DNA of 64,000 bases from Syntrophus gentianae (GTDB lineage Bacteria; Desulfobacterota; Syntrophia; Syntrophales; Syntrophaceae): the NCBI RefSeq assembly GCF_900109885.1, contig NZ_FOBS01000013.1, forward strand, positions 1 to 64,000, written 5' to 3'. The position numbers and the translations under genes were made by a program. The notes beneath the pieces are model-generated. The model saw nothing but the letters and a program-made list of their open reading frames with translations. It ran no database searches and was not told the DNA's origin. Below are positions 33,548 to 54,388 of the stretch, one piece after another; within the stretch, counting starts at the first letter, position 1; each line of letters begins with the position of its first letter.

Positions 33548-35644
33548 CTACAGTTTGAAGAGAAGATCCATGTAGGTGGGGATGGGCCACATGTCGCTGG
33601 GAATCAGCATTTCCATCCCGTCGATATCGCTGCGCAAGGATTGCATCGCAGGAAATACCTTGTCACGGTAAGCCTCAGCCTGTTTGACGCAGCCGGTAAG
33701 CCCCTGGGCCTTTGTTACGGCTCCTTCAAGCATGGTCAGGTTCTTATAGGCCGATGAGAGCAGGGCGCCGAGCTGTTTCAGGAGGTCTTCCTGGACGGAT
33801 GCACCGACCGAAACAGCCTGAAAACTGGAAATGGAATCGGCCAGGAAAGTCCCGAACTCGATGCCGGCGGGAATGAGCTGTTTCTTGGCCATGTCGATGG
33901 CCACCAGAGCTTCGATATTGATTTGTTTTGCGTAGATATCGACGTAAATCTCGTAGCGGGAATGCAGTTCCTTTTCGGACAGGACTTCATATTTACTGAA
34001 AAGGCTGATGGCCTTATTCGTAACGAAGGCCTTCAAGGCATCGATGGAGTTTTTCACATTGGGCAGACCCCGCTTCTCCGCTTCTTTGACCCACTCATCG
34101 CTGTAATTATTTCCATTGAAGATGATCCGGTTATGCTTCGTGTAGATTTCCCGGATGATCGCTGCGGCCTCGGCATTCTTGTCCTTGGCCTTTTCGAGGC
34201 GGGTGGCGATCTCATCAAGGGCCTCGGCGGCGATGGTATTCAAGGCCACATTGACGCCTGCAATCGACTGCGCCGAGCCAACCATGCGGAATTCGAACTT
34301 GTTTCCCGTGAAGGCAAAGGGAGAGGTCCGATTGCGGTCCGTATTGTCCATGGGAATTTCCGGCAGGGTATCCACGCCGACTTTCATATACTGTGCGCCT
34401 TTGGCCGCAACCTTCTCGCCTTTGGAAAGCTTCTCCAGAATTTCCGTAACTTCTTCTCCCATGAAAATGGAGACAATGGCCGGGGGGGCTTCGTTGGCAC
34501 CGAGACGGTGATCGTTGCCGGCGGATGCGCAGGTCGCCCGGAGGATATCGGCATGAGTGTCGACAGCCTTGATCAAAGCGCTCAAGAGCAGCAGGAACTG
34601 GACATTTTCGCTGGGGGTGTTACCCGGCTCAAGCAGGTTGATCCCGTCATCGGTCGAGAGAGACCAGTTGTTGTGCTTGCCGGAGCCGTTGATTCCGGCA
34701 TAGGGCTTTTCATGGAGCAGACAGACCAGGTCATGGCGCAAGGCAACCTTCTGCATGGTCTCCATGACGAGTTGGTTATGGTCCGTGGCGATGTTCGTCG
34801 TGGTATAAAGGGGAGCCATTTCGTACTGCGCCGGCGCGACTTCGTTGTGCTGTGTTTTGGAGGTAATGCCCATTTTCCACAGCTCGGTATTGAGGTCCTG
34901 CATGTAATCGGAGACTCTGTCCTTGATGAAGCCGAAATACTGGTCCTCAAGTTCCTGCCCCTTGGGGGCCGAAGCGCCGAAGATCGTTCGCCCTGCCAGC
35001 ATCAGGTCGAGACGTTCCATATAAAATTCCTTGTCCACCAGGAAGTATTCCTGTTCGGGGCCGACGGTGGAGGTTACTTTGGTGGGAGTGACATTTCCCA
35101 GGGCCTTTAACACCCGCAGGGCCTGCTCGTTCACGGCCTTCATGGAACGCAGCAGGGGCGTCTTCTTGTCGAGGGCTTCGCCGTGATAGGAATAGAAGGC
35201 GGTGGGAATCGTCAGGGTGACGTTTCCGCTTTCGTCCTCCTTCAGAAAGGCGGGCGAGGTGCAATCCCAGGCGGTGTACCCTCTCGCTTCGAAGGTAGAA
35301 CGCAGACCGCCGCTCGGAAAGGAGGACGCATCCGGCTCTCCCTGAATCAGCTGCTTGCCGGAAAATTCCACAATTCCACTTCCATCTGCAGCGGGCGAAA
35401 TGAAAGAGTCGTGCTTTTCGGCGGTTATTCCCGTCAGGGGCTGGAACCAGTGCGTATAGTGCGTCGCCCCTTTCTCGACCGCCCAATCCTTCATGGCATT
35501 GGCAACGACATTGGCCACATCGGGCCTTAACGGCACGTCTTTTTCGATCGTTTCCTTCAGTGCCTTATAAACATCCTTGGGCAACCGTCCCTTCATCACT
35601 TTATCGCTGAAAACATTAGAACCAAAAATTTCGGCAAGCTCCAT
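33548..35644 (-). CDS. glnN: Glutamine synthetase, type III
   Basis: Makes glutamine from glutamate, ammonia and ATP. The 698 residues and the motifs [47 protein letters not shown] and [14 protein letters not shown] are those of the large GlnN-type enzyme, which differs from GlnA. The start at 35644 has AAGGAGAG five bases upstream, and an upstream extension to 35770 lacks a site. A 17-bp direct repeat lies about 90-140 bases upstream. The split glutamate synthase operon 11 kb away could complete a GS-GOGAT pathway. Confidence 0.95.
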
Positions 35645-35734
35645 AATTCTCTCCTTATTTTTACCTTTTTTAATATACTTGAGAATTCCAGCCTGACCAG
35701 TTGGACTTCCCTTTAACCGATGTGTTTCATGTAT

Positions 35735-35781
35735 GCACATTATTGTATCAACAATCGAGGGTGCGCACATTATTGTATCAA
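35735..35781 (-). promoter_or_regulatory. Direct repeat upstream of glnN, candidate operator
   Basis: The 17-base sequence GCACATTATTGTATCAA occurs at 35735-35751 and again at 35765-35781. The copies are 30 bases apart start to start, close to three helical turns, so two protein units could bind on one face. The element lies 91-137 bases before the glnN start. It does not match the NtrC consensus. Confidence 0.65.
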
Positions 35782-36985: not shown

Positions 36986-37291
36986 TCCTGATTCCAATAC
37001 TCTGCTGGAACAAAATTGTACCATAAGCGTCCGGAGAGGAGGAAGCTTTAAAAGATAACTTACAGATATCATGCAATATCGGTTGGTTAAGAGATCATTT
37101 TCAATGGGCATATATCTTGATGTAACGTCAAGCATGACAAACGATCCGACTTTGGATGCAGGCTGGAAATGATACGATGGCTCGTCCAAAATACCTGACG
37201 CGCGGACCTGTTCTCAAGGAGAACGTAATAGGATTGTTTCTTTACCCATAGAAATTCAGAATTACCTGAAGTGTCATCTGGAGAGGATGTT
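36986..37291. other. Intergenic region before the KaiC-like/PPDK fusion
   Basis: About 300 bases with no gene. A GGAGAGG site lies just before the ATG at 37292. No clear promoter pair was found. Confidence 0.35.
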
Positions 37292-39895
37292 ATGGAAAAA
37301 ATACCAGCCCGGGTCAGTACGGGGTTTGAAGGTTTGGATAAGGTCATCGACGGTCTGAGAATCGGCGACAATGTCGTCTGGCAGGTTGATTCCATCTCGG
37401 ACTACCGCTCCTTTGTCAAGCCTTTCGTGCAGCGCGCCCTTACGGAAAACAGGAAAGTTGTCTATCTGCGTTTTGCCCAGCATGAACCGCTGCTGGAAGA
37501 GAACAGGCGGATCACCCTCTATCACCTCGATGCGCAAAGCGGCTTCGAATCTTTTTCTTCGGAGGTATACAACATCGCAACCCGCGAAGGAGAGGGAGTC
37601 TTTTATGTTTTTGATTCCCTTTCGGATCTTCTGTCCGCCTGGGCCACGGATCTGATGATCGGCAATTTCTTCCGGATCACCTGCCCCTACCTCTACCAGC
37701 TCGACACCGTTGCCTATTTCGCCTTGCTGCGCGACAACCACTCCTATAGAACCGTCGCCAGGATCCGGGAAACGACCCAGCTCCTGCTGGATGTCTATAA
37801 TGTTGAAGACAGGATCTACGTCCATCCCCTGAAGGTCATGGGACGCCATCTTCCCACCATGTTTCTCCCGCACCTGATGAGTGGAAACCGCTTCACACCG
37901 GTAAGCAGCAGCGTCGATACGGGACAACTTGTCCGCTATTTTTCGGGAAAAGGACTGGAAAACGCAAAGAGAAATCTCGATTACTGGGATCGGCTTTTTC
38001 TTCATGTTCGAGATTTGCTGCAGGAAGAGATGGACGATGAAGAAAAAAGGGACATCCTCGATCATCTCTGCGAGATCATGATCGGGCGGGAGGAGAGGAT
38101 CCAGGAACTTGCCAGAAAGTATCTCACCCTGGAAGATCTCTGCAACATCAAAGCGCGGCTGATCGGGACGGGCTATATCGGCGGCAAGGCCGCGGGGATG
38201 GTGATTGCGCGCAACATACTGCTCCAGGATCCGTCTTTCGACTGGCAGCGCTATCTGGAACCTCACGATTCCTTCTTCATCGGTTCCGATGTTTTTTACA
38301 CCTACATCGTGGAGAATGGCTGGTGGAAGCAGCGCATGGAGCAGAAGACCGGGGAAGGCTATTTCGAAATCGCCCGGATTTTGCGGGAACAGATGCTGAA
38401 CGGCAGGTTTCCCGATGAAATCGAGGAGCAGTTCTGGCGGGTGATTGAATACTTCGGTCAGTCCCCTCTGATCGTCCGCTCCAGTAGTCTCCTCGAAGAT
38501 GCCTTCGGAAATGCCTTTGCGGGAAAATATGAAAGCCTCTTCTGCGTCAATCAGGGCAGTCCCGAGGAGCGCTACCGGCAGTTCCGGGAGGCGGTCCGCC
38601 GTATTTTCGCCAGCACCATGAATGAAGACGCCCTGGCTTATCGTCTGCAGCGGGGTCTTGAAAAGCATGACGAGCAGATGGCCATCCTGGTACAGCGGGT
38701 CTCCGGTTCCTATCGGAAGGAATTTTTCTTCCCCGATCTTGCAGGCGTCGGCATCTCCTACAACACCTTTGTCTGGAAGAAAGAAATGGACCCCCGGGCC
38801 GGTATGGTCCGGCTGGTGATGGGGCTGGGAACAAGGGCTGTGAATCGGGTTGAGAACGATTACCCCCGCGTTTTTCCTCTGGATGCCCCCTCCTTGCGCC
38901 CCCATTCCGGAGGCAGTGACATCAGGAGATATTCGCAACATGATGTGGATGTCCTCAACATCAACAGCAATGAATTTGAAACCATCCCGGCAAACACGGT
39001 CCTGTCGGGAGATATGGGAATCCAGTCCGAAATGGTCGGGATTCGGGATCATGAAAGTGAGCAATTATTAAAAGAGAGAGGGCGGGGCGGTGAAGAAAGG
39101 TGGATCCTGACCTTTGACAAGCTTCTCTCCGAGACCCCTTTCCCGGCCATCATGCAGAAAATGATGAAAACCCTTGAAGAGAAGTACGATTATCCCGTGG
39201 ATATCGAGTTTACAACCAACTTTACCGGCGATGGCGCTTTTATGGTCAATCTCGTACAGTGTCGGCCGTTGCAGACGAAAGGCCGGGGAGAGGGAGCCCG
39301 GGTTGACATCCCGTCCAAGCTGTCCCTGGAGCAGATCCTTTTCCAGACGGAAGGCAACTTTATGGGCAGCAGCATTGCCCAGCAGGTGAAGCGTCTCATC
39401 TATGTCGATTCCGAGGAATACAGCCGTCTTTCCCTTTCAGAAAAATACGATATTGCCCGGCTGATCGGCAGATTGAACAGGATCAGCAAGCGGGAGGACT
39501 GTCCCACCGTTCTCCTCGGTCCGGGCCGCTGGGGCACCACGACACCCTCGCTCGGCGTGCCGGTGAGGTTCGCTGAAATCAACAATTTCCTGGCGATTGT
39601 CGAAATTGCCTACACGACGGGCAGTCTTATGCCGGAACTGTCCTTCGGCACACACTTCTTTCAGGATCTGGTTGAAACGGATATTTTTTATGTGGCCCTC
39701 TTCCCGGAACAAGAAGAGTTTCTCTTCAATGTCGGAGTGATCAAGGAGGGGGAAAACCTGCTTCCGGCTCTACTTCCGGAAAGCGCCCGCTATGAAAAGA
39801 CGGTCATTGTCCGGGATGTGGAAAAGGAGAAATTCTCGCTTTACGCCGACATCGTCTCCCGCAAGGTCCTCTGTTACCGTTCGGTCATAAGGTAG
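37292..39895 (+). CDS. KaiC-like domain fused to PEP-synthase/PPDK N-terminal domain
   Basis: An 867-residue protein of unknown role. Residues about 1-240 follow the KaiC/RecA-like pattern (RVSTGFEGLDKVIDGLRIGD), but the usual phosphate loop is replaced by WQVDSISDYRS, so nucleotide binding there is doubtful. After a helical linker, residues about 295-670 match the ATP-grasp domain of PEP synthase/PPDK: GTGYIGGKAAGM, LIVRSSSLLEDAFGNAFAGKY and VNLVQCRPLQ. The central phosphohistidine domain and the PEP-binding barrel are missing. Instead a unique C-terminal region of about 190 residues follows, containing LLGPGRWGTTTPSLGVPV. It may transfer a phosphate or pyrophosphate to an unknown partner. 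Confidence 0.8.
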   Translation: MEKIPARVSTGFEGLDKVIDGLRIGDNVVWQVDSISDYRSFVKPFVQRALTENRKVVYLRFAQHEPLLEENRRITLYHLDAQSGFESFSSEVYNIATREGEGVFYVFDSLSDLLSAWATDLMIGNFFRITCPYLYQLDTVAYFALLRDNHSYRTVARIRETTQLLLDVYNVEDRIYVHPLKVMGRHLPTMFLPHLMSGNRFTPVSSSVDTGQLVRYFSGKGLENAKRNLDYWDRLFLHVRDLLQEEMDDEEKRDILDHLCEIMIGREERIQELARKYLTLEDLCNIKARLIGTGYIGGKAAGMVIARNILLQDPSFDWQRYLEPHDSFFIGSDVFYTYIVENGWWKQRMEQKTGEGYFEIARILREQMLNGRFPDEIEEQFWRVIEYFGQSPLIVRSSSLLEDAFGNAFAGKYESLFCVNQGSPEERYRQFREAVRRIFASTMNEDALAYRLQRGLEKHDEQMAILVQRVSGSYRKEFFFPDLAGVGISYNTFVWKKEMDPRAGMVRLVMGLGTRAVNRVENDYPRVFPLDAPSLRPHSGGSDIRRYSQHDVDVLNINSNEFETIPANTVLSGDMGIQSEMVGIRDHESEQLLKERGRGGEERWILTFDKLLSETPFPAIMQKMMKTLEEKYDYPVDIEFTTNFTGDGAFMVNLVQCRPLQTKGRGEGARVDIPSKLSLEQILFQTEGNFMGSSIAQQVKRLIYVDSEEYSRLSLSEKYDIARLIGRLNRISKREDCPTVLLGPGRWGTTTPSLGVPVRFAEINNFLAIVEIAYTTGSLMPELSFGTHFFQDLVETDIFYVALFPEQEEFLFNVGVIKEGENLLPALLPESARYEKTVIVRDVEKEKFSLYADIVSRKVLCYRSVIR

Positions 39896-42900: not shown

Positions 42901-42966
42901 TCATCCTACGAAAAGTCAGTTCTTCTCAAGCCGATTCAGCGGCCATGATTGCCCGAAAGGAATGCC

Positions 42967-43659
42967 ATGGAACTCTCCCATGAAGTAAAAGAAATGATTT
43001 GTATCCGTCGCGGTCCCAATAACGGACCAGCGCCCATCCCCGAAGAGGGACGGTGGATTCAAGCTCGTGAAGTAAAAGACATCTCTGGCCTGACACACGG
43101 CGTCGGATGGTGCGCACCACAACAGGGCGCCTGCAAGCTGACCCTCAACGTCAAGGAGGGCATCATCCAGGAAGCTCTTGTTGAAACGCTCGGTTGCACC
43201 GGCATGACCCACTCCGCCGCGATGGCCGCGGAAATCCTTCCAGAGAAGACCATCCTCGAAGCCCTGAACACCGATCTGGTGTGTGACGCCATCAATGTCG
43301 CGATGCGGGAACTCTTTCTGCAGATCGTCTACGGGCGCACCCAGACCGCGTTCTCCGAGGACGGCTTGCCCATCGGCGCCGGCCTCGAAGACCTTGGCAA
43401 TGGGCTGCGCAGCGTAACCGGCACCATGTACGGCACCAGTGCCAAGGGTCCGCGTTATCTCGAAATTGCAGAAGGCTATGTGACTCGCCTGGCGCTCGAC
43501 GACAACGACGAGATCATCGGATACGAGTTCGTTAAACTTGGACCGATGATGGAACTTATCGGAAAGGGAGTCGAAGCGGGTGAAGCACTTAAGAAGTCCA
43601 TGGGAACCTATGGGCGTTTCGCCGAAGCCAAGCGAACAATTAATCCGAGGAAGGAGTGA
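42967..43659 (+). CDS. NifU-like iron-sulfur cluster assembly scaffold protein
   Basis: A 230-residue protein with an IscU/NifU_N-like core. Conserved cysteines lie in VGWCAPQQGACKLTL and ETLGCTGMTHSAAMAAEIL. It is longer than IscU (about 130), with an unusual N-terminal extension and a C-terminal tail of about 70 residues. In annotated anaerobes such proteins commonly neighbour GGGtGRT genes, as here. AAAGGA lies about six bases before the ATG at 42967, and an earlier start at 42949 is weaker. No cysteine desulfurase is nearby. It may serve a specialised cluster or metal-delivery role rather than general assembly. Confidence 0.82.
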   Translation: MELSHEVKEMICIRRGPNNGPAPIPEEGRWIQAREVKDISGLTHGVGWCAPQQGACKLTLNVKEGIIQEALVETLGCTGMTHSAAMAAEILPEKTILEALNTDLVCDAINVAMRELFLQIVYGRTQTAFSEDGLPIGAGLEDLGNGLRSVTGTMYGTSAKGPRYLEIAEGYVTRLALDDNDEIIGYEFVKLGPMMELIGKGVEAGEALKKSMGTYGRFAEAKRTINPRKE

Positions 43660-43665
43660 CGGACC

Positions 43666-44670
43666 ATGGCACTTTTTGAAGGTTATGAACGACGCATCCC
43701 GCAAATAACAGAGCTTCTGAAGAAGCATGGCCTGGCAAACATCGAGGCCGCTGACTCACTCTGCAAGAGCAATGGCGTCGACGTGAGCGCCATAGTCAGG
43801 GGCGTACAGCCAATCTGCTTCGAGAACGCCTGCTGGGCCTACACCCTGGGTGCAGCCATTGCCATCAAGAAGGGTCAGAAGAAGGCCGCAGACATCGCGA
43901 CCTCCCTCGGTGAGGGACTGCAGGCCTTCTGCATTCCTGGTTCCGTCGCTGACGACCGCAAGGTGGGGCTCGGCCACGGAAACCTTGCCAGCATGCTCCT
44001 AAAGGAAGAAACTCAGTGTTTCGCTTTCCTCGCGGGCCATGAGTCCTTCGCTGCAGCAGAAGGAGCCATTGGCTTGGCCAATAGTGCCAACCGCGCCAGG
44101 AAGACCCCCCTACGTGTTATCCTCAACGGCCTCGGCAAGGATGCCGCTCAGATCATCGCGCGCATCAACGGTTTTACCCACGTGCAAACGAAGTTCGACT
44201 ACGCCACCGGTAAGGTCGCCGTCGTCAGGGAAACGGCTTACTCCCAAGGTGATCGCAGCAAGGTGCGTTGCTACGGAGCGGACGACGTACGCGAAGGTGT
44301 TGCTATTCTCCACCTTGAAAAGGTCGATGTTTCAATCACAGGTAACTCAACTAACCCCACGCGCTTTCAGCACCCCGTCGCCGGTACCTACAAGAAGGAA
44401 TGCATCGAGCAAGGCAAGAAGTACTTCTCTGTAGCTTCCGGTGGCGGTACGGGCCGCACCCTGCATCCCGACAACATGGCTGCAGGTCCCGCTTCCTACG
44501 GCATGACTGACACCATGGGGCGCATGCACTCTGATGCGCAGTTCGCGGGTTCCTCATCCGTGCCCGCACACGTCGAGATGATGGGCCTTATCGGCATGGG
44601 CAATAATCCCATGGTCGGTGCTTCCGTTGCCGTTGCAGTAGCCATCGAAGAAGCCATGAAGAAAGGCTGA
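43666..44670 (+). CDS. GGGtGRT family protein
   Basis: 334 residues with the family's namesake motif in SVASGGGTGRTLHPDNMAAG at about residue 265. The start is six bases after the scaffold gene stop. Further conserved-looking segments are PICFENACWAYTLGAAIAI, GLGHGNLASMLLKEET, FLAGHESFAAAEG and a glycine/alanine-rich C-terminus. Two or three Cys could bind a metal or a cluster. The family is widespread in strict anaerobes and has no assigned reaction that I know of. Its fixed pairing with a NifU-like scaffold suggests it receives, stores or uses an Fe-S cluster. Confidence 0.85.
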   Translation: MALFEGYERRIPQITELLKKHGLANIEAADSLCKSNGVDVSAIVRGVQPICFENACWAYTLGAAIAIKKGQKKAADIATSLGEGLQAFCIPGSVADDRKVGLGHGNLASMLLKEETQCFAFLAGHESFAAAEGAIGLANSANRARKTPLRVILNGLGKDAAQIIARINGFTHVQTKFDYATGKVAVVRETAYSQGDRSKVRCYGADDVREGVAILHLEKVDVSITGNSTNPTRFQHPVAGTYKKECIEQGKKYFSVASGGGTGRTLHPDNMAAGPASYGMTDTMGRMHSDAQFAGSSSVPAHVEMMGLIGMGNNPMVGASVAVAVAIEEAMKKG

Positions 44671-45127: not shown

Positions 45128-45443
45128 TGAGACTCCCGTAGGAGTTGCAAACCTGACAGGTCTCCCCGGATAAGAACGTGAACTGTGACTATGCAACCGC
45201 AGCATTTACCGTATCTCCCGAATCCAGGGCTTTGTCATGTTGTGCTGACTTACCCGGAGTCTCAGCCTTGTATGCTGTTTCTGTTCGTCGGCTCATAGCT
45301 TTGCACTCCGGCTTCCTCCGGACGGTCCCTCGCGGTTCCGCCCTTGCCTTCGGCTAGTACTTGTGTCAATGTATAAACCATTGACAGGATTCACATACAG
45401 GGGACTTTCACCCCATAAGTTCACGCCCGTGCCGGGCGTACAC
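45128..45443 (-). mobile_element. Decayed 5' fragment of a group II intron (probably IIC-attC type)
   Basis: Read on the minus strand from 45443, the sequence starts GTGTACGCCCGGCACGGGCG and continues with GGGGTGAAAGTCCCC, the hallmark 5' end of bacterial group II introns. A reading frame starts ATG at 45295 (MSRRTETAYKAETPGKSAQH), is broken by TAG, and stays open in the same frame beyond it (SQFTFLSGETCQVCNSYGSL), so it is a dead start of the reverse transcriptase gene. No catalytic reverse-transcriptase domain or domain V is present. The 5' end abuts a hairpin, the known target type of group IIC introns. The fragment ends where repeat copy A begins. Confidence 0.7.
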
Positions 45444-46918: not shown

Positions 46919-49594
46919 TTATGCGGTGCCACCACAGGACATTGCCGCTTGTTCGTCTTCGGTCTCACTGAGCCCATCATCGTTTTTTGCCTGGGCACCG
47001 GCCGCCGCCTGCGGGATGATTTTCCGGTACACCCCTTCAGGGGACCTTTTCTGGCCGTCAACCGTTAGAAGCCGCTCGATCGATATATCGAAAAGTCTTT
47101 CGTTCTCTTCAAGGTAAGGCAGGATCAATTTCCAGTCCACCTCGGTGATCGCCACAAACTGCCCGCCGTTGAGCTGTTCATCCACCAGCTTTTTCCGGGG
47201 ATCTCTCACATAGATCGCACCGCCTGACGCAAGGGAAAAGATGTTGGATCCCGGATAGGGCGATTCATATTCGCGGATCGACCCATCGTGATCATTGAAT
47301 CCGATGCCGTTCAGAATGACGAAACCGCCTCCATTGAGCGGATCGCCCGCCATGAAAGACTCCGCCAGATAGTCCAGGGCTGTCCCATTGATGACGACCC
47401 GCGGTTTACCGACGGCATTGATCAGGGGCCGTCCCGCAGCATTCCCCATGATGTATGCGGCGCCACCCTTGGCACCGTACATGAAGGTCTGGCCCACATC
47501 GCCGTAGACAACCAGCTTCCCGTCTTTCATGATCTGACAGAGCTGATCCTGGGCATTTCCATGAACATGTATCTCCAGGCCGTCGATGCCCGATGCCAGG
47601 TAATCACCCGAGGAATCATAGACGTCAATTCGCACATCCTTGACGACCGGGCCGAACCCGCAACCGGTAAATCGCTGGCCACGGTATCTGTAAACAATGA
47701 ACCTCTTCCAGCCAAGTTTGTAAGCGGCCACGATCAGCACCGCGTCACAGAGGTCACCTTCCGGCTCGAAGCGCTCTGCGTCGATAATGAGAGTTCGTTC
47801 GTTCTTCCTGGGTGCCCGCAGTTGATCCCGGGTCGTAAAATCGATCCTGCTGAAATCGGCCTCCGAGTTTTCCGTAATCAGCGGAGTCGTGGAAAAGATC
47901 TCATCCAGGTTGATCTTCAGGACATGCTGGACGGAACTTCTCTTGATCCTGCCCGTATCGAACCGTCGATCGTTTAGTCGGGTCAGGGCCTCAATCGCCG
48001 TTTGCTTGAACTCATCCCTTTCCAGGGCGTACCGTTTAACGGTTTCTACCGCAAACCGGAAACTGTCTGGTTCAAAACTTCCGATCTGATCCCGGATATA
48101 GGTGAATATTTTCTGTGCTGCCTCCGTAGGATCTTTTTCGGAAAACAGGACCGCCAGCTTTTGTTCGACCTCCTTACACGATTCCGTCACGGCCACCGGC
48201 TTGGAGAGGTCACAGATGAGCTTGTCTGTGGACGTTTCGATGACCTTTCCGAACTTGTCCGTACAGATGAGCTTCTTGTTTTCTGAACCGTCGCCGGCAT
48301 CCTGAAGGCTGAAGATGAAAGAACCGCCGTCCGTATAGCTGCCGCCGCGGGCATTCCAGTATTTATCGGCAATGGGACCGAAGCGCGGATCTTCCCTTTC
48401 CAGGGAGATGAGTGTGGCGTCGATAGCCTGCTTTTCGGAACAGATCAGACCGATGGAGACCTCTCCCTCCTGCAGGGCGAACACCTGGGGACGAAGCATG
48501 GCCGTATCCGTAATGCCGATCAGCTGAAACTGGCTGTTCCTGACGTCATTCCGGGCGATAATGAAGAACCAGGGTCCGTCGGGAGAGGCATTGACATGAT
48601 GGGTCTGAATGGCCTTGTACAGCTCCTGCTTTTCCGCGGGCAGCATGTCGAAATCCATCTCCGAGGTCGGCGCCATGGCCTCAATCAGGTATTCCAGGGG
48701 ATACTTGTAGACACGGCTCCACAGGTCGAGGAGCAGCGCAGCCTCTTCCGTATCGGTGAGAAACAGAGGGGTGTAGTTCCTTTGTTTGAGATATTCGTAA
48801 ATGGCTTGATAGTTTGCGAAATCACCGTTGTGCACCAAGGCCTCATTGAGCGCGCTGAAGGGGTGGCAGCCGCCGGGGTGCCAGACGCGGCCCCGGGTGG
48901 GATACCGCTGGTGGGCCAGCCAGACATGTGCCTTGAAGTCATCCAGCTTGTAGTAACGGACCACATTTTCCGCATAGCCGACGATTTTCAGGATCATCAT
49001 GTTCCGGCCATGGGACATGACAAAGGCCTTCTTTTCACCGAGAGAAGCGTAATACCGGGTGTTGATCCGGAAGCTGTTCTGATAGACGAACTCGTCCTCG
49101 GCATCCCGGCGGTCCAGGGAGGAGAAAGCATTGTCCTGAATGAACTGGTCCAGGACGTCGTCCTTGACGCGGACGAAATAGCGCAGAATGTCCGGAGGTC
49201 TGACTTCGAGGCCGATGCTGCGATAATCATCGATCGTGGCCAGTTTCTCGGACTTGTCAATCCGGAAGTACGGTTTGATGAATGTGTCTTCAATCTCCCC
49301 CGCCACCTCGGCTTCGATAAGGGCGATGTGGAGCATGTAATCCTCGTCGAGAACCTGCCGGGAGACCCCCAGGGCTTCAGGAACGAATCCCACCGCGCCG
49401 ATGCCTCCCCCTTTGCCGTTACCGCGGTTGTGCATCTGGGCGGACGGCTCAAAGATGTTCTTCCCGGTGACGGGGATGGAACTGATGAATCCCGTTACGC
49501 CGCAGCCACCTTCCTCCTCCGTGTTCGAGGGAAGATCAGGCACCTGGCTGCAAAGCGCAGTGCGTGAAAGCAATATTTTTTCAGCGTTATCCAT
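46919..49594 (-). CDS. Glutamate synthase-like glutaminase + GXGXG domain protein
   Basis: About 891 residues. The N-terminal third is a class II glutamine amidotransferase. The catalytic Cys is expected in EEEGGCGVTGFISS, after a leader of about 30 residues that would be removed. LAHQRYPTRGRVW and LVHNGDFANY are substrate motifs. The C-terminal third (about 600-850) is the GltB GXGXG beta-helix (GNAQDQLCQIM, YGDVGQTFMYGAKGG, GTALDYLAESF). The central FMN domain of GltB is absent and is encoded separately upstream. The ATG at 49594 has GGAG ten bases upstream. It is the last gene of a four-gene operon. Confidence 0.88.
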   Translation of the reverse strand: MDNAEKILLSRTALCSQVPDLPSNTEEEGGCGVTGFISSIPVTGKNIFEPSAQMHNRGNGKGGGIGAVGFVPEALGVSRQVLDEDYMLHIALIEAEVAGEIEDTFIKPYFRIDKSEKLATIDDYRSIGLEVRPPDILRYFVRVKDDVLDQFIQDNAFSSLDRRDAEDEFVYQNSFRINTRYYASLGEKKAFVMSHGRNMMILKIVGYAENVVRYYKLDDFKAHVWLAHQRYPTRGRVWHPGGCHPFSALNEALVHNGDFANYQAIYEYLKQRNYTPLFLTDTEEAALLLDLWSRVYKYPLEYLIEAMAPTSEMDFDMLPAEKQELYKAIQTHHVNASPDGPWFFIIARNDVRNSQFQLIGITDTAMLRPQVFALQEGEVSIGLICSEKQAIDATLISLEREDPRFGPIADKYWNARGGSYTDGGSFIFSLQDAGDGSENKKLICTDKFGKVIETSTDKLICDLSKPVAVTESCKEVEQKLAVLFSEKDPTEAAQKIFTYIRDQIGSFEPDSFRFAVETVKRYALERDEFKQTAIEALTRLNDRRFDTGRIKRSSVQHVLKINLDEIFSTTPLITENSEADFSRIDFTTRDQLRAPRKNERTLIIDAERFEPEGDLCDAVLIVAAYKLGWKRFIVYRYRGQRFTGCGFGPVVKDVRIDVYDSSGDYLASGIDGLEIHVHGNAQDQLCQIMKDGKLVVYGDVGQTFMYGAKGGAAYIMGNAAGRPLINAVGKPRVVINGTALDYLAESFMAGDPLNGGGFVILNGIGFNDHDGSIREYESPYPGSNIFSLASGGAIYVRDPRKKLVDEQLNGGQFVAITEVDWKLILPYLEENERLFDISIERLLTVDGQKRSPEGVYRKIIPQAAAGAQAKNDDGLSETEDEQAAMSCGGTA

Positions 49595-49611
49595 TATTTT
49601 CAAGCTCCGCT

Positions 49612-51093
49612 TTAATTACTGTAATCGATATGTTCCAGCAGATCCGTCCGGCCGACAAGCTCTTTAACGCTTCTCATGCCGAACTTCTGGAGGATCTCAA
49701 CCAGTTGGACATTCCAGGCATGGTAGAAATTGGTCAGACGCTGGGTTGCCCATTCCTCGGTAAAGAGGTCCGCCAGCTCGGAGTCCGTCGAGGCGATACC
49801 CCGGGCACAGCCCCGCCCCGATTCACAATTGCCGCAGCGGACGCATTCCAGGGAAACCAGCTCGGACGTCCCGACCACCGCCCCGTCCGCCCCAAGGCAG
49901 ATCGCTTTGGCCAGGTCATGGGCGGTCCGGATGCCTCCCGAGGCGATGAGGGTAACGGCGTCCCGGACGCCCTCATCCTTCAGGAAACGATGAACCTTGA
50001 CGATGCCGTATTCAATGGGCATGGCAATGTTTTTCTTGGCAATATCCGGCGCCGCGCCGGTGCCGCCGTAACCGCCGTCGATGTGGATAATATGCGCGCC
50101 GGCATAGTAGGAACCGACGGCCACCATGTCCACGTCATTGGGGGTGGATACCTTTACGGAAACCAGGGCCTGGGGATTCATCTCCTTGATCCAGTCGATG
50201 TGCTTCTTATGATCCTCGATGGAATAGACCGAATGAAAGGGAAAGGGCGAAAACAGGGAGGTGCCCTTGACCGCCTCGCGCATTTTGGCGACGCTCTCCG
50301 TATTCTTCTCTCCCAGCAGGTGTCCGCCAAGACCGGGCTTTGCACCCTGGGCGTATTTAAACTCAACGATCTTCACCCGCTGGATCGTCTCCTCACGGAC
50401 CCCGAAGAGACCGGTGGCCACCTGGGTAATCACGTGGTCATCATAGGGGAGGAGGTTCTCCGGATAACCGCCTTCACCGGTACAGGTAAAAGTATTCCAG
50501 ATTGTGGCATTGTGCGCCTTGGAAACCATCGTGGGGAGACTGACGGAACCGAAGGACATCCCGCCGCCATACATGGGGGTCGAGATGACCACGTTCGCCC
50601 GGCCGTCGTTTCTCCGGTTCAGCTCGATGGCCGTGGAGATTTCAGACTTGTCGACGTACGGCGGATTGGCGGGAAATTTGAACCGCAGCTTGTCGAAGCC
50701 GCCGCCGGAATTGCCGACGGTATACTCAAGATCCGTTCTCGTCGGCGGGTAGCCCGTCTCGGCCATGATCCAAGTCGCCGTGATGATATCCGCCGTCCAG
50801 CGGTAGTCTCCCAGCGTATCGTACATGGGATTGAGGGAGAGACTCAGGGCCTGGCGCGGGCACTTGCCAAGGCAGCAGAACTCCTTGCTCTCGCATTCAA
50901 AGCCAATGCATTTGTAGTCAATGGGCGGGTTTACCTTGTTGTGCCCCTCAACCCTTTCATGAACGCCGTAGGGGCATGTCCTGGCGCACGTGCCGCAGTT
51001 GATGCAGGCATCAGACCGAGTGATCTTGTACTTGGGCACCTGGTGCCTGAAACGCGAAGGCATTTCTTTAATGGTGACTGTCGATGGTTTCAT
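49612..51093 (-). CDS. gltB: Ferredoxin-linked FMN-binding glutamate synthase domain protein
   Basis: 493 residues. A ferredoxin-like region at about 25-85 has CINCGTCARTCPYG and a second Cys-rich segment CIGFECESKEFCCLGKCP. The rest is the FMN barrel of glutamate synthase: PMYGGGMSFGSVS, AQGAKPGLGGHLLG, the GGYGGTGAAPDIAKK flavin loop and LIASGGIRTAHD. The GltB-type 3Fe-4S cysteines occur in CVRCGNCESGRGC. The ammonia from the glutaminase subunit and 2-oxoglutarate would be joined here to make glutamate. It overlaps the upstream gene by four bases (ATGA). GltB from archaea is split in a comparable way. Confidence 0.85.
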   Translation of the reverse strand: MKPSTVTIKEMPSRFRHQVPKYKITRSDACINCGTCARTCPYGVHERVEGHNKVNPPIDYKCIGFECESKEFCCLGKCPRQALSLSLNPMYDTLGDYRWTADIITATWIMAETGYPPTRTDLEYTVGNSGGGFDKLRFKFPANPPYVDKSEISTAIELNRRNDGRANVVISTPMYGGGMSFGSVSLPTMVSKAHNATIWNTFTCTGEGGYPENLLPYDDHVITQVATGLFGVREETIQRVKIVEFKYAQGAKPGLGGHLLGEKNTESVAKMREAVKGTSLFSPFPFHSVYSIEDHKKHIDWIKEMNPQALVSVKVSTPNDVDMVAVGSYYAGAHIIHIDGGYGGTGAAPDIAKKNIAMPIEYGIVKVHRFLKDEGVRDAVTLIASGGIRTAHDLAKAICLGADGAVVGTSELVSLECVRCGNCESGRGCARGIASTDSELADLFTEEWATQRLTNFYHAWNVQLVEILQKFGMRSVKELVGRTDLLEHIDYSN

Positions 51094-52499
51094 AGTCTCA
51101 CTGCTTCTCTGTTTTTAAATAGTTTTCCAAAGGTGTCCTCGTCGACCTCTTCAAAGAAGATCGCCCGTCCGGTTTCGCCCCGCAAGCGGCGGGCTTCCCG
51201 GATTCCCATCGCCCCCATCACTTCGAGGAGCTGTGAATGCCAGGCGCCCATGAGGTTGACAATCCGCTGGGTAAGGATCGGTACGGGGATGTTTTCCAGT
51301 CCTTCCGGAAGAACAAGGAACTTTTCCGGCTCTTCATACAACCGGATGCCCAGGGCGATGAGCAGCGGCAGGTCTACTGCCGTCAAGTCCGCGCCACAGA
51401 TCATGGCCTTGGGGACATGCTCCGCCATGGCGATCCCACCGGAAAAGATCAGACTGACCTCATCGCGGATCCCTTCACTGACGAGCCGTAGATGGACAGC
51501 CCGGATGATGTCTTTGATCAGCCTCGGATGGGAGGAGGCATGACCATTGACTTCCAGGCCGCAGTAGTCGGCAACGATGTGGATGATCTCCGCCCCGCTG
51601 TGAACAAGCTGGGACACCGTGTCCTCTACATCTTTGCCTGCCGGAATCCGGATGATGACCGGAGCGCTGCTGATCCCTTTCATTTTGACCTTCACGGCCT
51701 GGTAATTGTTCAGGAGTTCACCGTCATATTGAAGGGCCGCCAGCCGCGCATTTTTCAGCAGGGCCGAGTACTGGTCGATTTCTTTATGTGTCAGCAAGGG
51801 AATGATGTTGTCGGCATACGGCTCAAAATCCTTTGTCAGGCCGGCAACAGGCAGAATGAGGAACGTGTCGAGCTCTGCTGCTGCCTTGGCCAGGGCAGCC
51901 TGGACATTCCCAGGCAGGTTCTCCGCCGGGAGATCAAAGACGATGGGAAGGGGAAGATGAACCGTATCGAAAATCCGCGACAGCAACTTCCCGTCGGCAT
52001 CAAAGACCAGGTGATTGAGTTTCCGGCCCAGCTCAACGGCGGTACTGATATATTCCCGTCCATGGATTCCATCCCGGGTCGGGCGGACGATTTCCGACAT
52101 GTCCGTCCACATGCCGTCAAACCCCATGCCGGTAAAAGGGCCTCTGTATCCGGCCCCGGAAACGGGTACTTTTCCGTCTTCGGCCTGCTTCCAGAGGGAA
52201 ATGAGCATGTTGGATTTCCAGTAAGAACCGTCGCTGTTCAGGAAGTCCTGGTTCAGGGATTTTTCCAGGGCTCCCCGGGGGCATTCCTGGATGCACCGGA
52301 AGCAGTTCCTGCAGACGGCGGTGTTGGGAGCCGCCATCTTTCGCGGATCGCCTATTTCCCGCTTATGGGCTTCATAGATGCATACTTTGGTGCACTTGCC
52401 GCAGTTGATGCAGTTTTCACCGCGCGTAATCCTGAACTTGAACAGGTATTCCAGGTCCAGGGGGGTCGCTTTTGTGGAAATGTGATATTTCTTTGGCAT
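51090..52499 (-). CDS. Degenerate paralogue of the FMN glutamate synthase domain protein
   Basis: 469 residues. It begins with two Cys clusters (CINCGKCTKVCIYE and CRNCFRCIQECPRG) that suit two 4Fe-4S centres. A GltB-like barrel follows, recognisable from LIFSGGIAMAEHVPKAMICGAD and a C-terminal NLMGAWHSQLLEVMGAMG shared with the neighbouring paralogue. It lacks the GGTGAAP flavin-phosphate loop and the 3Fe-4S cysteines of its neighbour, so catalysis by itself is unlikely. It may be an electron-transfer or structural subunit. Its stop overlaps the next start by four bases. Confidence 0.75.
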   Translation of the reverse strand: MPKKYHISTKATPLDLEYLFKFRITRGENCINCGKCTKVCIYEAHKREIGDPRKMAAPNTAVCRNCFRCIQECPRGALEKSLNQDFLNSDGSYWKSNMLISLWKQAEDGKVPVSGAGYRGPFTGMGFDGMWTDMSEIVRPTRDGIHGREYISTAVELGRKLNHLVFDADGKLLSRIFDTVHLPLPIVFDLPAENLPGNVQAALAKAAAELDTFLILPVAGLTKDFEPYADNIIPLLTHKEIDQYSALLKNARLAALQYDGELLNNYQAVKVKMKGISSAPVIIRIPAGKDVEDTVSQLVHSGAEIIHIVADYCGLEVNGHASSHPRLIKDIIRAVHLRLVSEGIRDEVSLIFSGGIAMAEHVPKAMICGADLTAVDLPLLIALGIRLYEEPEKFLVLPEGLENIPVPILTQRIVNLMGAWHSQLLEVMGAMGIREARRLRGETGRAIFFEEVDEDTFGKLFKNREAVRL

Positions 52500-52543
52500 A
52501 ATCGTTCTTCTTCTTTATGAAATGAAGTTTATAGAGGATGGAA

Positions 52544-54388
52544 TCAGGCGTTTCTCTCCACCATCTCCCAGTATTCATCACTTTTGTCGACCTTCTTCAG
52601 AAATTCCGTGATCTGAGCTTCCGGCCGGCCGAACTTGCCTTCAAGCCTTGTTTCCAGAGCATCCCAGAACCTCATCAGTTCGAGATTGGTCTGGCAGATC
52701 TCCTCGCAGGCCTTGCAGTGCATGCACATGAAGGCATTCTGCGCTTCCTCCCTGGTCACTTCTTTTCCTTCAATGAGTTTCTTGGCCAGCGCGACTTTCC
52801 CTTTTGCCGTGACCCCTTCATTGTGCGTGATCAGGTAGGCGGGGCAGACGGCAAGACAGTTGCCGCACTTGGCGCAGGCATGGGTGCTTAACTCGAAGTC
52901 AAGATGATCGATTTTCTCTTCCTTCCCGAAGAGCAGTGTGGCCGCTTTGCCAATGATCGGCGACAGGCTTGTCAGGAGATTCATGGACAAGCCAAAAACG
53001 GCCGGCGAGAAGACAAGGGAGGCAAGAGCCGTTGAGTTGACCGCAAAAAATTTCCCGGGATTCAGGATGTTGTTCGGATCCACCTTCGCCTTGTATGCTT
53101 TCAGCGCCTGTTGCCTCTCCGGGCTGTACAGGGCATTGATGAAGGCGGCATTCCAGAGGCCCAGGCCGTAAGGCTCGGCACCCAGGGAAACAGCCGTCTT
53201 GGTGAGCATGGAAACCAGGGGCATGTTGATCATGTATTTTTTCTTCCTCGAGTCACAGAGGAAAGTGGCCATGATCAGGGCCAGCTTCTCATCAAGAATA
53301 TAGGAGTCGACGCAGATTTCAACGCCGAATCGGTCTCCCAGTTTTTTAGCTCTTTCAATAAAGTCTGCCGCCGCGGAAATCGGGATAATAATTTCGCTCG
53401 CCAGAATCGTCGGCCCCAGACGCTTTGTCTTCATCCCGAAGAGGCGCTCATTCCACAGGTATCGGGCGGCATAGCGGGGCGCTGCCTCAATGACCCCCGA
53501 TTTGACGATGAATCTCTCGAAGCGTTCTTCATCCTCGGCACTGCCGAACTCAAAAAGAACGCCGGCACTCTTCTTGAAAATCTCGGCCCGGATGACCTCG
53601 TTGGTGTCGTTGAGATGATTTTCATCCAGGAAGCGGATGACGTTGGGATTGAGATTCTCCGCGTTCCTGCTTTTGACGAAGCGGTCGATGAAGGAGAAAG
53701 CCGCCCGGTCGTCCTTGAAATAAAGCAGATGGGCATAGGACGCCTCCGGGACATCCCGAAGTTTGAGCGTGGCCTCAACGATAATGCCGAACTCCCCTTC
53801 GGTGGACACAAAGAAGTGAAATTCGGGGTCGGAAGGGGAAAGGACCTTGAGTTCCCCGGCGCCGGTGATCACCTTCATGGAGACGATCTGCTTCGACAGG
53901 TGCCCGTACCTGAAGCTGTTGATTCCATAGCCTCCCGTTGAGATCCAGCCGGCAACGGTGGAAAACTTGCTGGAGGGGTACGTCATCAGACAAAGACCCA
54001 CTTTCTTCGCCATCAGATCGATATCGCTCCACCGGGCGCCCGCCTCAACGGTAACGGTCTTTTCCTTCGTATCAATCTCCAGGATTTTCCGGAAAGGAGA
54101 AAGGTCGATGACAATTCCGGCTTTCGTCGGGATCACGCCGCCAAAGCCCCATGATGCGGAGCCCCTGGGTATCACGGGGACCTTCTCCTTATTGGCAAAG
54201 GCCAGGACCTTTTTGATCTCGTCTGCGTTTTTAGGCTGAACGACAAAATCGGGTTGCGTTTCAAAAAATGTCCTGGTCATGATATCCGGAACATCACCAA
54301 TATCATGAGAGAACATCTCTCTTTCTTCCACCTTGTCGAGGATGTTGATATCGCCCGCGACCTTTCTGAATTCTTCTATCGATTTCAT
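52544..54388 (-). CDS. GlcD-like FAD-binding oxidoreductase with C-terminal iron-sulfur domain
   Basis: 614 residues. The FAD-binding PCMH domain covers about 35-220 (VPVIPRGSASWGFGG, AGWISTGGYGINSF), the FAD-oxidase C-terminal domain about 220-450, and a ferredoxin domain about 500-570 with CAKCGNCLAVCPAY and CMHCKACEEICQTN. This layout fits D-lactate, glycolate or other 2-hydroxyacid dehydrogenases. It is the first gene of the operon with the glutamate synthase-like genes. There is no GltD, so this protein may replace it as the electron input module. The substrate is unknown. Confidence 0.82.
   Translation of the reverse strand: MKSIEEFRKVAGDINILDKVEEREMFSHDIGDVPDIMTRTFFETQPDFVVQPKNADEIKKVLAFANKEKVPVIPRGSASWGFGGVIPTKAGIVIDLSPFRKILEIDTKEKTVTVEAGARWSDIDLMAKKVGLCLMTYPSSKFSTVAGWISTGGYGINSFRYGHLSKQIVSMKVITGAGELKVLSPSDPEFHFFVSTEGEFGIIVEATLKLRDVPEASYAHLLYFKDDRAAFSFIDRFVKSRNAENLNPNVIRFLDENHLNDTNEVIRAEIFKKSAGVLFEFGSAEDEERFERFIVKSGVIEAAPRYAARYLWNERLFGMKTKRLGPTILASEIIIPISAAADFIERAKKLGDRFGVEICVDSYILDEKLALIMATFLCDSRKKKYMINMPLVSMLTKTAVSLGAEPYGLGLWNAAFINALYSPERQQALKAYKAKVDPNNILNPGKFFAVNSTALASLVFSPAVFGLSMNLLTSLSPIIGKAATLLFGKEEKIDHLDFELSTHACAKCGNCLAVCPAYLITHNEGVTAKGKVALAKKLIEGKEVTREEAQNAFMCMHCKACEEICQTNLELMRFWDALETRLEGKFGRPEAQITEFLKKVDKSDEYWEMVERNA

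Follow-up and report, generated by a model that had tools for sequence, protein, structure and literature searches.

When ammonia is scarce, nitrogen enters amino acids mainly through glutamate synthase. The electron donors of the reviewed enzymes are NADPH, NADH and ferredoxin (PMC8097209), F420H2 being a proposed donor in methanogens. The NADPH-dependent enzyme, GltBD (EC 1.4.1.13), comprises a class II glutaminase, a flavin mononucleotide (FMN) domain carrying the cysteines of a [3Fe-4S] site and a QGAKPG motif, a GXGXG domain, and an input flavin adenine dinucleotide (FAD) protein with two [4Fe-4S] clusters, GltD, which has the adrenodoxin-reductase fold. The ferredoxin-dependent synthase (ferredoxin-GltS) is a single chain that uses free ferredoxin and has no input subunit. 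F420H2-dependent synthases, FGltS(I) and FGltS(II), have been proposed for archaeal clusters encoding FrhB-like subunits (PMC3448663, PMC3087415), and the same proposal has been made for the FrhB10 clusters of anaerobic methanotrophic (ANME) archaea (PMC9012536). The subject of this report is a four-gene operon of Syntrophus gentianae, located at positions 46919-54388 of the first 64,000 nucleotides (nt) of contig NZ_FOBS01000013.1 (hereafter the window), in which the part of GltD as electron input has very probably been taken over by a GlcD-like flavoprotein.

The four genes, all on the minus strand, are transcribed in the order g1 (GlcD-like), g2 (degenerate FMN barrel), g3 (FMN synthase) and g4 (glutaminase plus GXGXG). 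Open reading frames (ORFs), coordinates and domains (Pfam) are as given in the initial annotation, which had described a split synthase operon with a GlcD-like first gene:

52544-54388, minus: g1, 614 amino acids (aa), VAO/PCMH-type FAD protein, proposed electron-input subunit (Pfam, cysteine conservation in orthologues, AlphaFold)
51090-52499, minus: g2, 469 aa, degenerate FMN-barrel paralogue with a two-[4Fe-4S] domain (weak Glu_synthase match, 4e-8)
49612-51093, minus: g3, 493 aa, FMN glutamate synthase subunit with an N-terminal two-[4Fe-4S] domain (PF01645, E 7.7e-88)
46919-49594, minus: g4, class II glutaminase plus GXGXG; ORF of 894 aa open to TTG 49603 (PF13522 (GATase_6), PF01493, ribosome-binding site)

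The operon resembles GltBD in its glutaminase, FMN and GXGXG modules and in having an FAD protein with two [4Fe-4S] clusters at the input. It differs in the division of GltB between two proteins, with a partial duplicate (g2), in the extra ferredoxin domains on g2 and g3, and in the VAO-fold, GlcD-like nature of g1. The split g3/g4, the fused ferredoxin domains and the conserved g1 likewise set it apart from ferredoxin-GltS. In the F420H2 synthases too, gene context suggests that GltD is replaced by another electron-input flavoprotein, but that protein is FrhB/FpoF-like, and no FrhB-like domain was found among the four operon proteins; this comparison concerns the input subunit. A GlcD-like or FlpD/MetF-type input to glutamate synthase was not found described in the literature searched, outside which lay most subscription papers and preprints. 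Judged from sequence, the operon probably encodes a single glutamate synthase in which g1 is the electron-input subunit in place of GltD.

Conservation of the operon and its synthase core

The operon is not a chance arrangement: 45 distinct loci, spread over several phyla and both domains, show the order g1-g2-g3-g4, and purifying selection acts on each of the four genes (ratio of nonsynonymous to synonymous substitution rates, dN/dS, 0.04-0.17 against the nearest Syntrophus relative). A scan with g2 returned 53 loci, many of them g1-g2-g3-g4, in Syntrophales/Deltaproteobacteria, Dehalococcoidia, Syntrophomonas-labelled bins, Methanomicrobia, Thermoplasmata and Methanomassiliicoccales. In the archaeal copies the genes mostly overlap, by 4-20 nt in many. 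Pairwise divergence of the four proteins is correlated (r 0.97-0.99; 0.78-0.90 within the bacterial clade), the values for g1 against g2, g3 and g4 being 0.98 overall and 0.78-0.85 within the bacterial clade. Because the order is kept across phyla, the archaeal genes overlap and the divergences match, the four proteins very likely form one complex, as had been suggested. Two start/stop overlaps had also been reported; the sole one in the operon is that of g2 and g3 (4 nt). The gap between g1 and g2 is 44 nt, and that between g3 and g4 is 8 nt if g4 starts at TTG 49603 or 17 nt if it starts at ATG 49594. The ATG, preceded by a GGAG ribosome-binding site, is for that reason the more likely start.

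The elements that identify g3 and g4 as the putative catalytic core, and a loop peculiar to g2, are the following:

50332-50349, minus: g3 QGAKPG flavin/2-oxoglutarate-site motif, residues 249-254 (AKPG in 42/42 orthologues; aligned to GltB)
49807-49845, minus: g3 C417, C420, C423 and C429 at the GltB [3Fe-4S] site (conserved in 42/42; aligned to GltB C-x5-C-x4-C)
49502-49504, minus: g4 Cys34, candidate N-terminal nucleophile after a propeptide (EGGCGV; Cys in 32/32 orthologues)
47165-47641, minus: g4 GXGXG domain, residues 655-813 (PF01493, E 5.6e-13)
52041-52121, minus: g2 near-invariant loop FDGMWTDMSEIVRPTRDGIHGREYIST, residues 127-153 (invariant alignment columns; low confidence in the isolated model)

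g3 aligns with the solved GltB chains 2vdc, 1ea0 and 1llw (FMN domain of the Azospirillum and Synechocystis synthases), and the VHNGD motif of g4 is conserved. In a joint alignment with g3, g2 lacks both the QGAKPG-bearing core segment and the 3Fe-4S cysteines; its eight ferredoxin cysteines are invariant. From these features g2 looks like a pseudo-enzyme, retained as a non-catalytic partner and Fe-S wire. Foldseek retrieved generic FMN barrels only, with a template modelling (TM) score of 0.44 to GltB, a result that does not bear on its function. The core motif of its loop is found in 102/108 loci and a stricter loop pattern in 76/109, and WTDMSEIVRPTRDGIHGREYIST is present in copies with either of the front ends described below. 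The loop is not ordered in the isolated model (predicted local distance difference test, pLDDT, <50 at 132-148) and may fold on g3 or g4.

Glutaminase, GXGXG and FMN modules are also combined in MgsABC and GlxBCD. By analogy, the product of the operon might not be glutamate but, for example, that of an N-methylglutamate-synthase-like enzyme or another amidotransferase. The genomic setting makes this extremely unlikely: the neighbours of the operon in relatives include type III glutamine synthetase (GSIII), GlnA, Amt, GlnK, carA and glutamate dehydrogenase (GDH), the neighbourhood is common to a GltD-fusion glutamate synthase, and family searches of the genome (3.7 Mb, 99.99% complete) found no second full Glu_synthase protein, which leaves the operon as the one complete glutamate synthase identified there.

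Front ends exchanged on the core

The initial annotation had noted that GltD is missing. This is correct for the operon, since none of its four proteins has the GltD-type combination of Fer4_20 and a pyridine-nucleotide FAD domain (Pfam), but not for the genome, which encodes three Fer4_20 proteins elsewhere. The best GltD-like candidate among these is an NfnAB pair, and none adjoins a synthase gene.

The conservation of g1 beside the synthase genes in 45 distinct loci, whose lack would have counted against the initial annotation, does not extend to most relatives in the phylum, which use another front end. The g2-g3-g4 core itself reaches further than the four-gene order. In a sample of 247 genomes from the phylum, a close g3 is present in 59, and in most of these FlpD (MvhD-like) holds the slot before g2, frequently accompanied by MetV and MetF and in some cases by nearby Hdr genes; g1 holds it in the window genome and five others. 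When all 112 loci are considered, g1 is found in 46 (45 without one duplicate) and FlpD and/or MetV/MetF in 58, while none has both, two have neither and six are too short. The FlpD-MetV-MetF operons, from Thermodesulfobacteriota and Planctomycetota, have the same core order as the operon of the window, with about 60-70% identity for g3 and 40-45% for g2, but carry an MvhD-type FlpD plus MetV and/or MetF, in some cases near Hdr genes, and no g1.

FlpD-MetV-MetF-g2-g3-g4, with Hdr genes near in some (L107-L157, L034-L037, L043, L056, L069), appears to be the common form of the core in Thermodesulfobacteriota. A methylenetetrahydrofolate reductase adjoining a glutamate synthase was unexpected.

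In the g3 tree, the bacterial g1 type forms one clade (Shimodaira-Hasegawa-like approximate likelihood ratio test, SH-aLRT, 100) beside the FlpD/MetF types, and the archaeal g1 types lie mostly deeper; L042 sits on a long branch and its placement was not relied on. These positions of the g1 types indicate that front ends have been exchanged or lost more than once.

A third version occurs in the same order, Syntrophales. It consists of a separate glutaminase, an FMN protein about 31% identical to g3 and a GXGXG-GltD fusion, without g2 (L064-L068); its expected chemistry is the same, and it shares the carA-GSIII-X-PPDK_N neighbourhood. Of 60 Syntrophales genomes, 26 carry the GltD-fusion synthase and six the g1 type, with an overlap of 0 (p=0.027, a value that ignores phylogeny). 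No other finding argues more strongly for g1 as the replacement of GltD than this exclusion and the shared neighbourhood; that claim of the initial annotation is further borne out by the position of g1 in the FlpD/MetV/MetF slot.

An alternative is that the core is an ordinary split synthase driven by ferredoxin or NADPH, with NfnAB or a GltD-like donor acting in trans, and that g1 is co-transcribed and belongs to the same pathway but stands outside the electron path. The NfnAB pair, the two further Fer4_20 proteins and the ferredoxin domains on g2 and g3 would suit such an arrangement. The strict exclusivity of g1 and FlpD/MetV/MetF in the slot, however, argues for a direct redox link, and the ferredoxin domains are lost or reduced where no front end is seen, so this alternative is unlikely. 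The single good case of such loss is archaeal: in L047, 7.9 kb of upstream sequence contains no front-end gene, and the ferredoxin domain is absent from g3 and reduced in g2, which fits those domains serving the front end. The loss in g2 is partial, one partial Cys motif being left in L047 and L060. The N-terminal ferredoxin domain of g3 is missing from the copies in both L047 and L052 (Crenarchaeota and Heimdallarchaeota bins), the upstream region of L052 not being readable. Domain loss was judged on directly read ORFs only; extension of frames to the previous stop gave artefacts in long open frames.

Besides the phylogeny-blind p value, several points weigh against g1 as the electron input in place of GltD. 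Co-occurrence does not give the direction of electron flow, and the mirror-tree correlation is explicable by shared descent too. Many loci are metagenome bins, in which the Opitutia, Syntrophomonas and Dehalococcoidia labels may be mis-binned. With NfnAB in the genome, NADPH might serve the core by way of a GltD-like protein acting in trans, and GDH, which the genome encodes too, could be the main source of glutamate.

The probable active site of g1 and its electron donor

The FAD protein g1 is made of three parts:

53840-54253, minus: FAD-binding domain, residues 46-183 (PF01565 (FAD_binding_4), E 1.2e-34)
53051-53662, minus: substrate-domain equivalent, residues 243-446 (PF02913 (FAD-oxidase_C), residue counts)
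52685-52882, minus: C-terminal two-[4Fe-4S] domain, residues 503-568 (PF13183, Cys conservation)

The eight Fe-S cysteines are invariant across orthologues. The AlphaFold model (pLDDT 86), compared over residues 1-457 only (Foldseek/VIA), is closest among solved folds to mouse LDHD (8jdp; Z 37.5, 2.6 A over 428 residues), followed by Porcellio D-lactate dehydrogenase, LctD and D-2-hydroxyglutarate dehydrogenase. The score of g1 against the glcD equivalog TIGR00387 (131 bits) misses the cut-off of 567.9.

The initial annotation had proposed a 2-hydroxyacid or similar donor. If g1 were a true 2-hydroxyacid dehydrogenase, it would feed the synthase from lactate, glycolate or 2-hydroxyglutarate, and its nearest relatives in both sequence and fold are indeed D-lactate dehydrogenases (LctD, 7qh2; mouse LDHD, 8jdX) and D-2-hydroxyglutarate dehydrogenase. 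In mouse LDHD, Arg347, His398, His405, Glu442 and His443 are each essential (PMC10589216). The corresponding g1 residues were compared over 40 orthologues. The carboxylate-binding Arg347 is conserved as R315 (40/40), as this reading would predict. By contrast, the counterpart of His398, residue 363, is Y/Q/T in bacteria and H in 14/14 archaeal-type proteins, that of His405, residue 370, is A/G/T/V/R, that of Glu442, residue 406, is P in 39/40 and A otherwise, and that of His443, residue 407, is Y in 40/40. Bacterial g1 therefore retains, of the five essential residues, the carboxylate Arg only. g1 shares with the LctD/EtfAB lactate dehydrogenase and mouse LDHD the fold, the FAD domain and this Arg, but not the metal-binding and catalytic residues of the GHAGDGNxH and EH motifs, and it differs also by its C-terminal two-[4Fe-4S] domain and by having no adjacent electron-transfer flavoprotein (Etf) genes. 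The HxxGDGNxH and EHG motifs are retained in both other, canonical GlcD paralogues of the same genome.

Redox potentials point the same way. The lactate/pyruvate couple has a potential of about -190 mV. That of the GltB FMN, near -240 mV (PMC8097209), lies below it. With the catalytic residues absent, oxidation of a 2-hydroxyacid by g1 is very unlikely, and the donor is probably other than a D-2-hydroxyacid used by the known metal/His mechanism.

g1 has an invariant set of its own, W148, W312, R315, F317, P326, Y407, G410 and W412, part of which is common to GlcD-FeS-CCG proteins of 1023-1026 aa elsewhere in the order. Genes for GlcD-FeS-CCG-like proteins with the g1-like, non-canonical WxxR, KRLGP and [AP]Y..G motifs lie at L071 917-3997 (minus) and L072 3260-6331 (plus), where they adjoin a gene for a protein resembling an outer-membrane FadL-type porin.

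The loss of the canonical substrate residues could also mean that g1 has no organic substrate and instead receives electrons at its FAD from a protein carrier (ferredoxin, flavodoxin or Etf), g1 being an adaptor to the synthase, as in a ferredoxin-dependent enzyme fitted with one. The other front end, FlpD, is a member of the MvhD family, and MvhD passes electrons from protein to protein as an adaptor in Hdr complexes (PMC2702500), in line with such a role. Nevertheless, the pocket positions of the invariant set (W312, R315, F317, Y407, G410, W412) are non-canonical yet invariant, as for a working active site, and part of this pocket set also occurs in the longer GlcD-FeS-CCG proteins outside the operon. 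The adaptor role is consequently rather doubtful. g1 forms a distinct subfamily whose active site, though different, probably works. As the carboxylate Arg is retained, a carboxylate substrate is possible, and a first guess is that the donor is a small carboxylate that a different active site oxidises (Arg315, Tyr407 and basic residues 320/322). NAD(P)H is probably not the donor, since no Rossmann-type NAD(P) domain was found in the operon.

Proposed electron path, neighbouring genes and biological meaning

The reaction expected of the operon is glutamine + 2-oxoglutarate + 2 electrons + 2 protons -> 2 glutamate. Glutamine would be hydrolysed by g4, whose GXGXG domain would help ammonia pass to g3, and g3 would bind 2-oxoglutarate and FMN and reduce the imine (2-iminoglutarate formed with the ammonia from g4). 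The FAD of g1 would take two electrons from the donor, and the two [4Fe-4S] clusters of g1 would relay them one at a time to the ferredoxin domains on g2 and g3, from which they would pass to the 3Fe-4S-type cluster and FMN of g3 and on to 2-iminoglutarate. g2, its flavin site gone, would act as structural partner and Fe-S wire for g3/g4. The g2-g3-g4 core is modular, FlpD with MetV/MetF, and sometimes Hdr, being attached at the same point in other lineages.

Two genes of the window belong to families that flank the operon in relatives:

33548-35770, minus: GSIII, same family as the operon neighbour in relatives (tblastn 52% to the GSIII of L013)
37271-39895, plus: PPDK_N-domain protein, same family as the operon-flanking gene in relatives (tblastn 58%; PF01326 in relatives)

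A PPDK_N-domain protein of ~860 aa recurs next to GSIII and to glutamate synthases of either kind (window, L013, L017, L018, L020, L022, L025, L026, L030, L043, L067). Elsewhere in the window, a NifU_N-like protein of 236 aa is followed by a GGGtGRT-family protein (PF14057) at 42949-44670 (plus), and a match to group II intron D1-D4 (RF02001, 127 bits) lies at 45175-45339 (minus). No long reverse-transcriptase ORF was seen near the intron match, which looks like a fragment.

Tentatively, g1 may represent a new electron-entry route, in which a metal-free GlcD-like dehydrogenase draws electrons from a metabolite hitherto unconnected with nitrogen assimilation and the synthase needs neither NAD(P)H nor F420 nor free ferredoxin. 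It would then be one among several exchangeable front ends of a modular core that includes a conserved pseudo-synthase, g2. Roles can be hypothesised for two so far unassigned families, that of the GlcD-like proteins of the g1 type and that of the pseudo-synthase g2. The exchange of GlcD-like and FlpD/MetV/MetF front ends on the core, with GltD counting as an exchanged module only in relatives with a different core, would tie nitrogen assimilation to different redox pools in organisms that subsist close to the energy limit, namely syntrophs, dehalococcoids, sulfate reducers and methanogen-related archaea.

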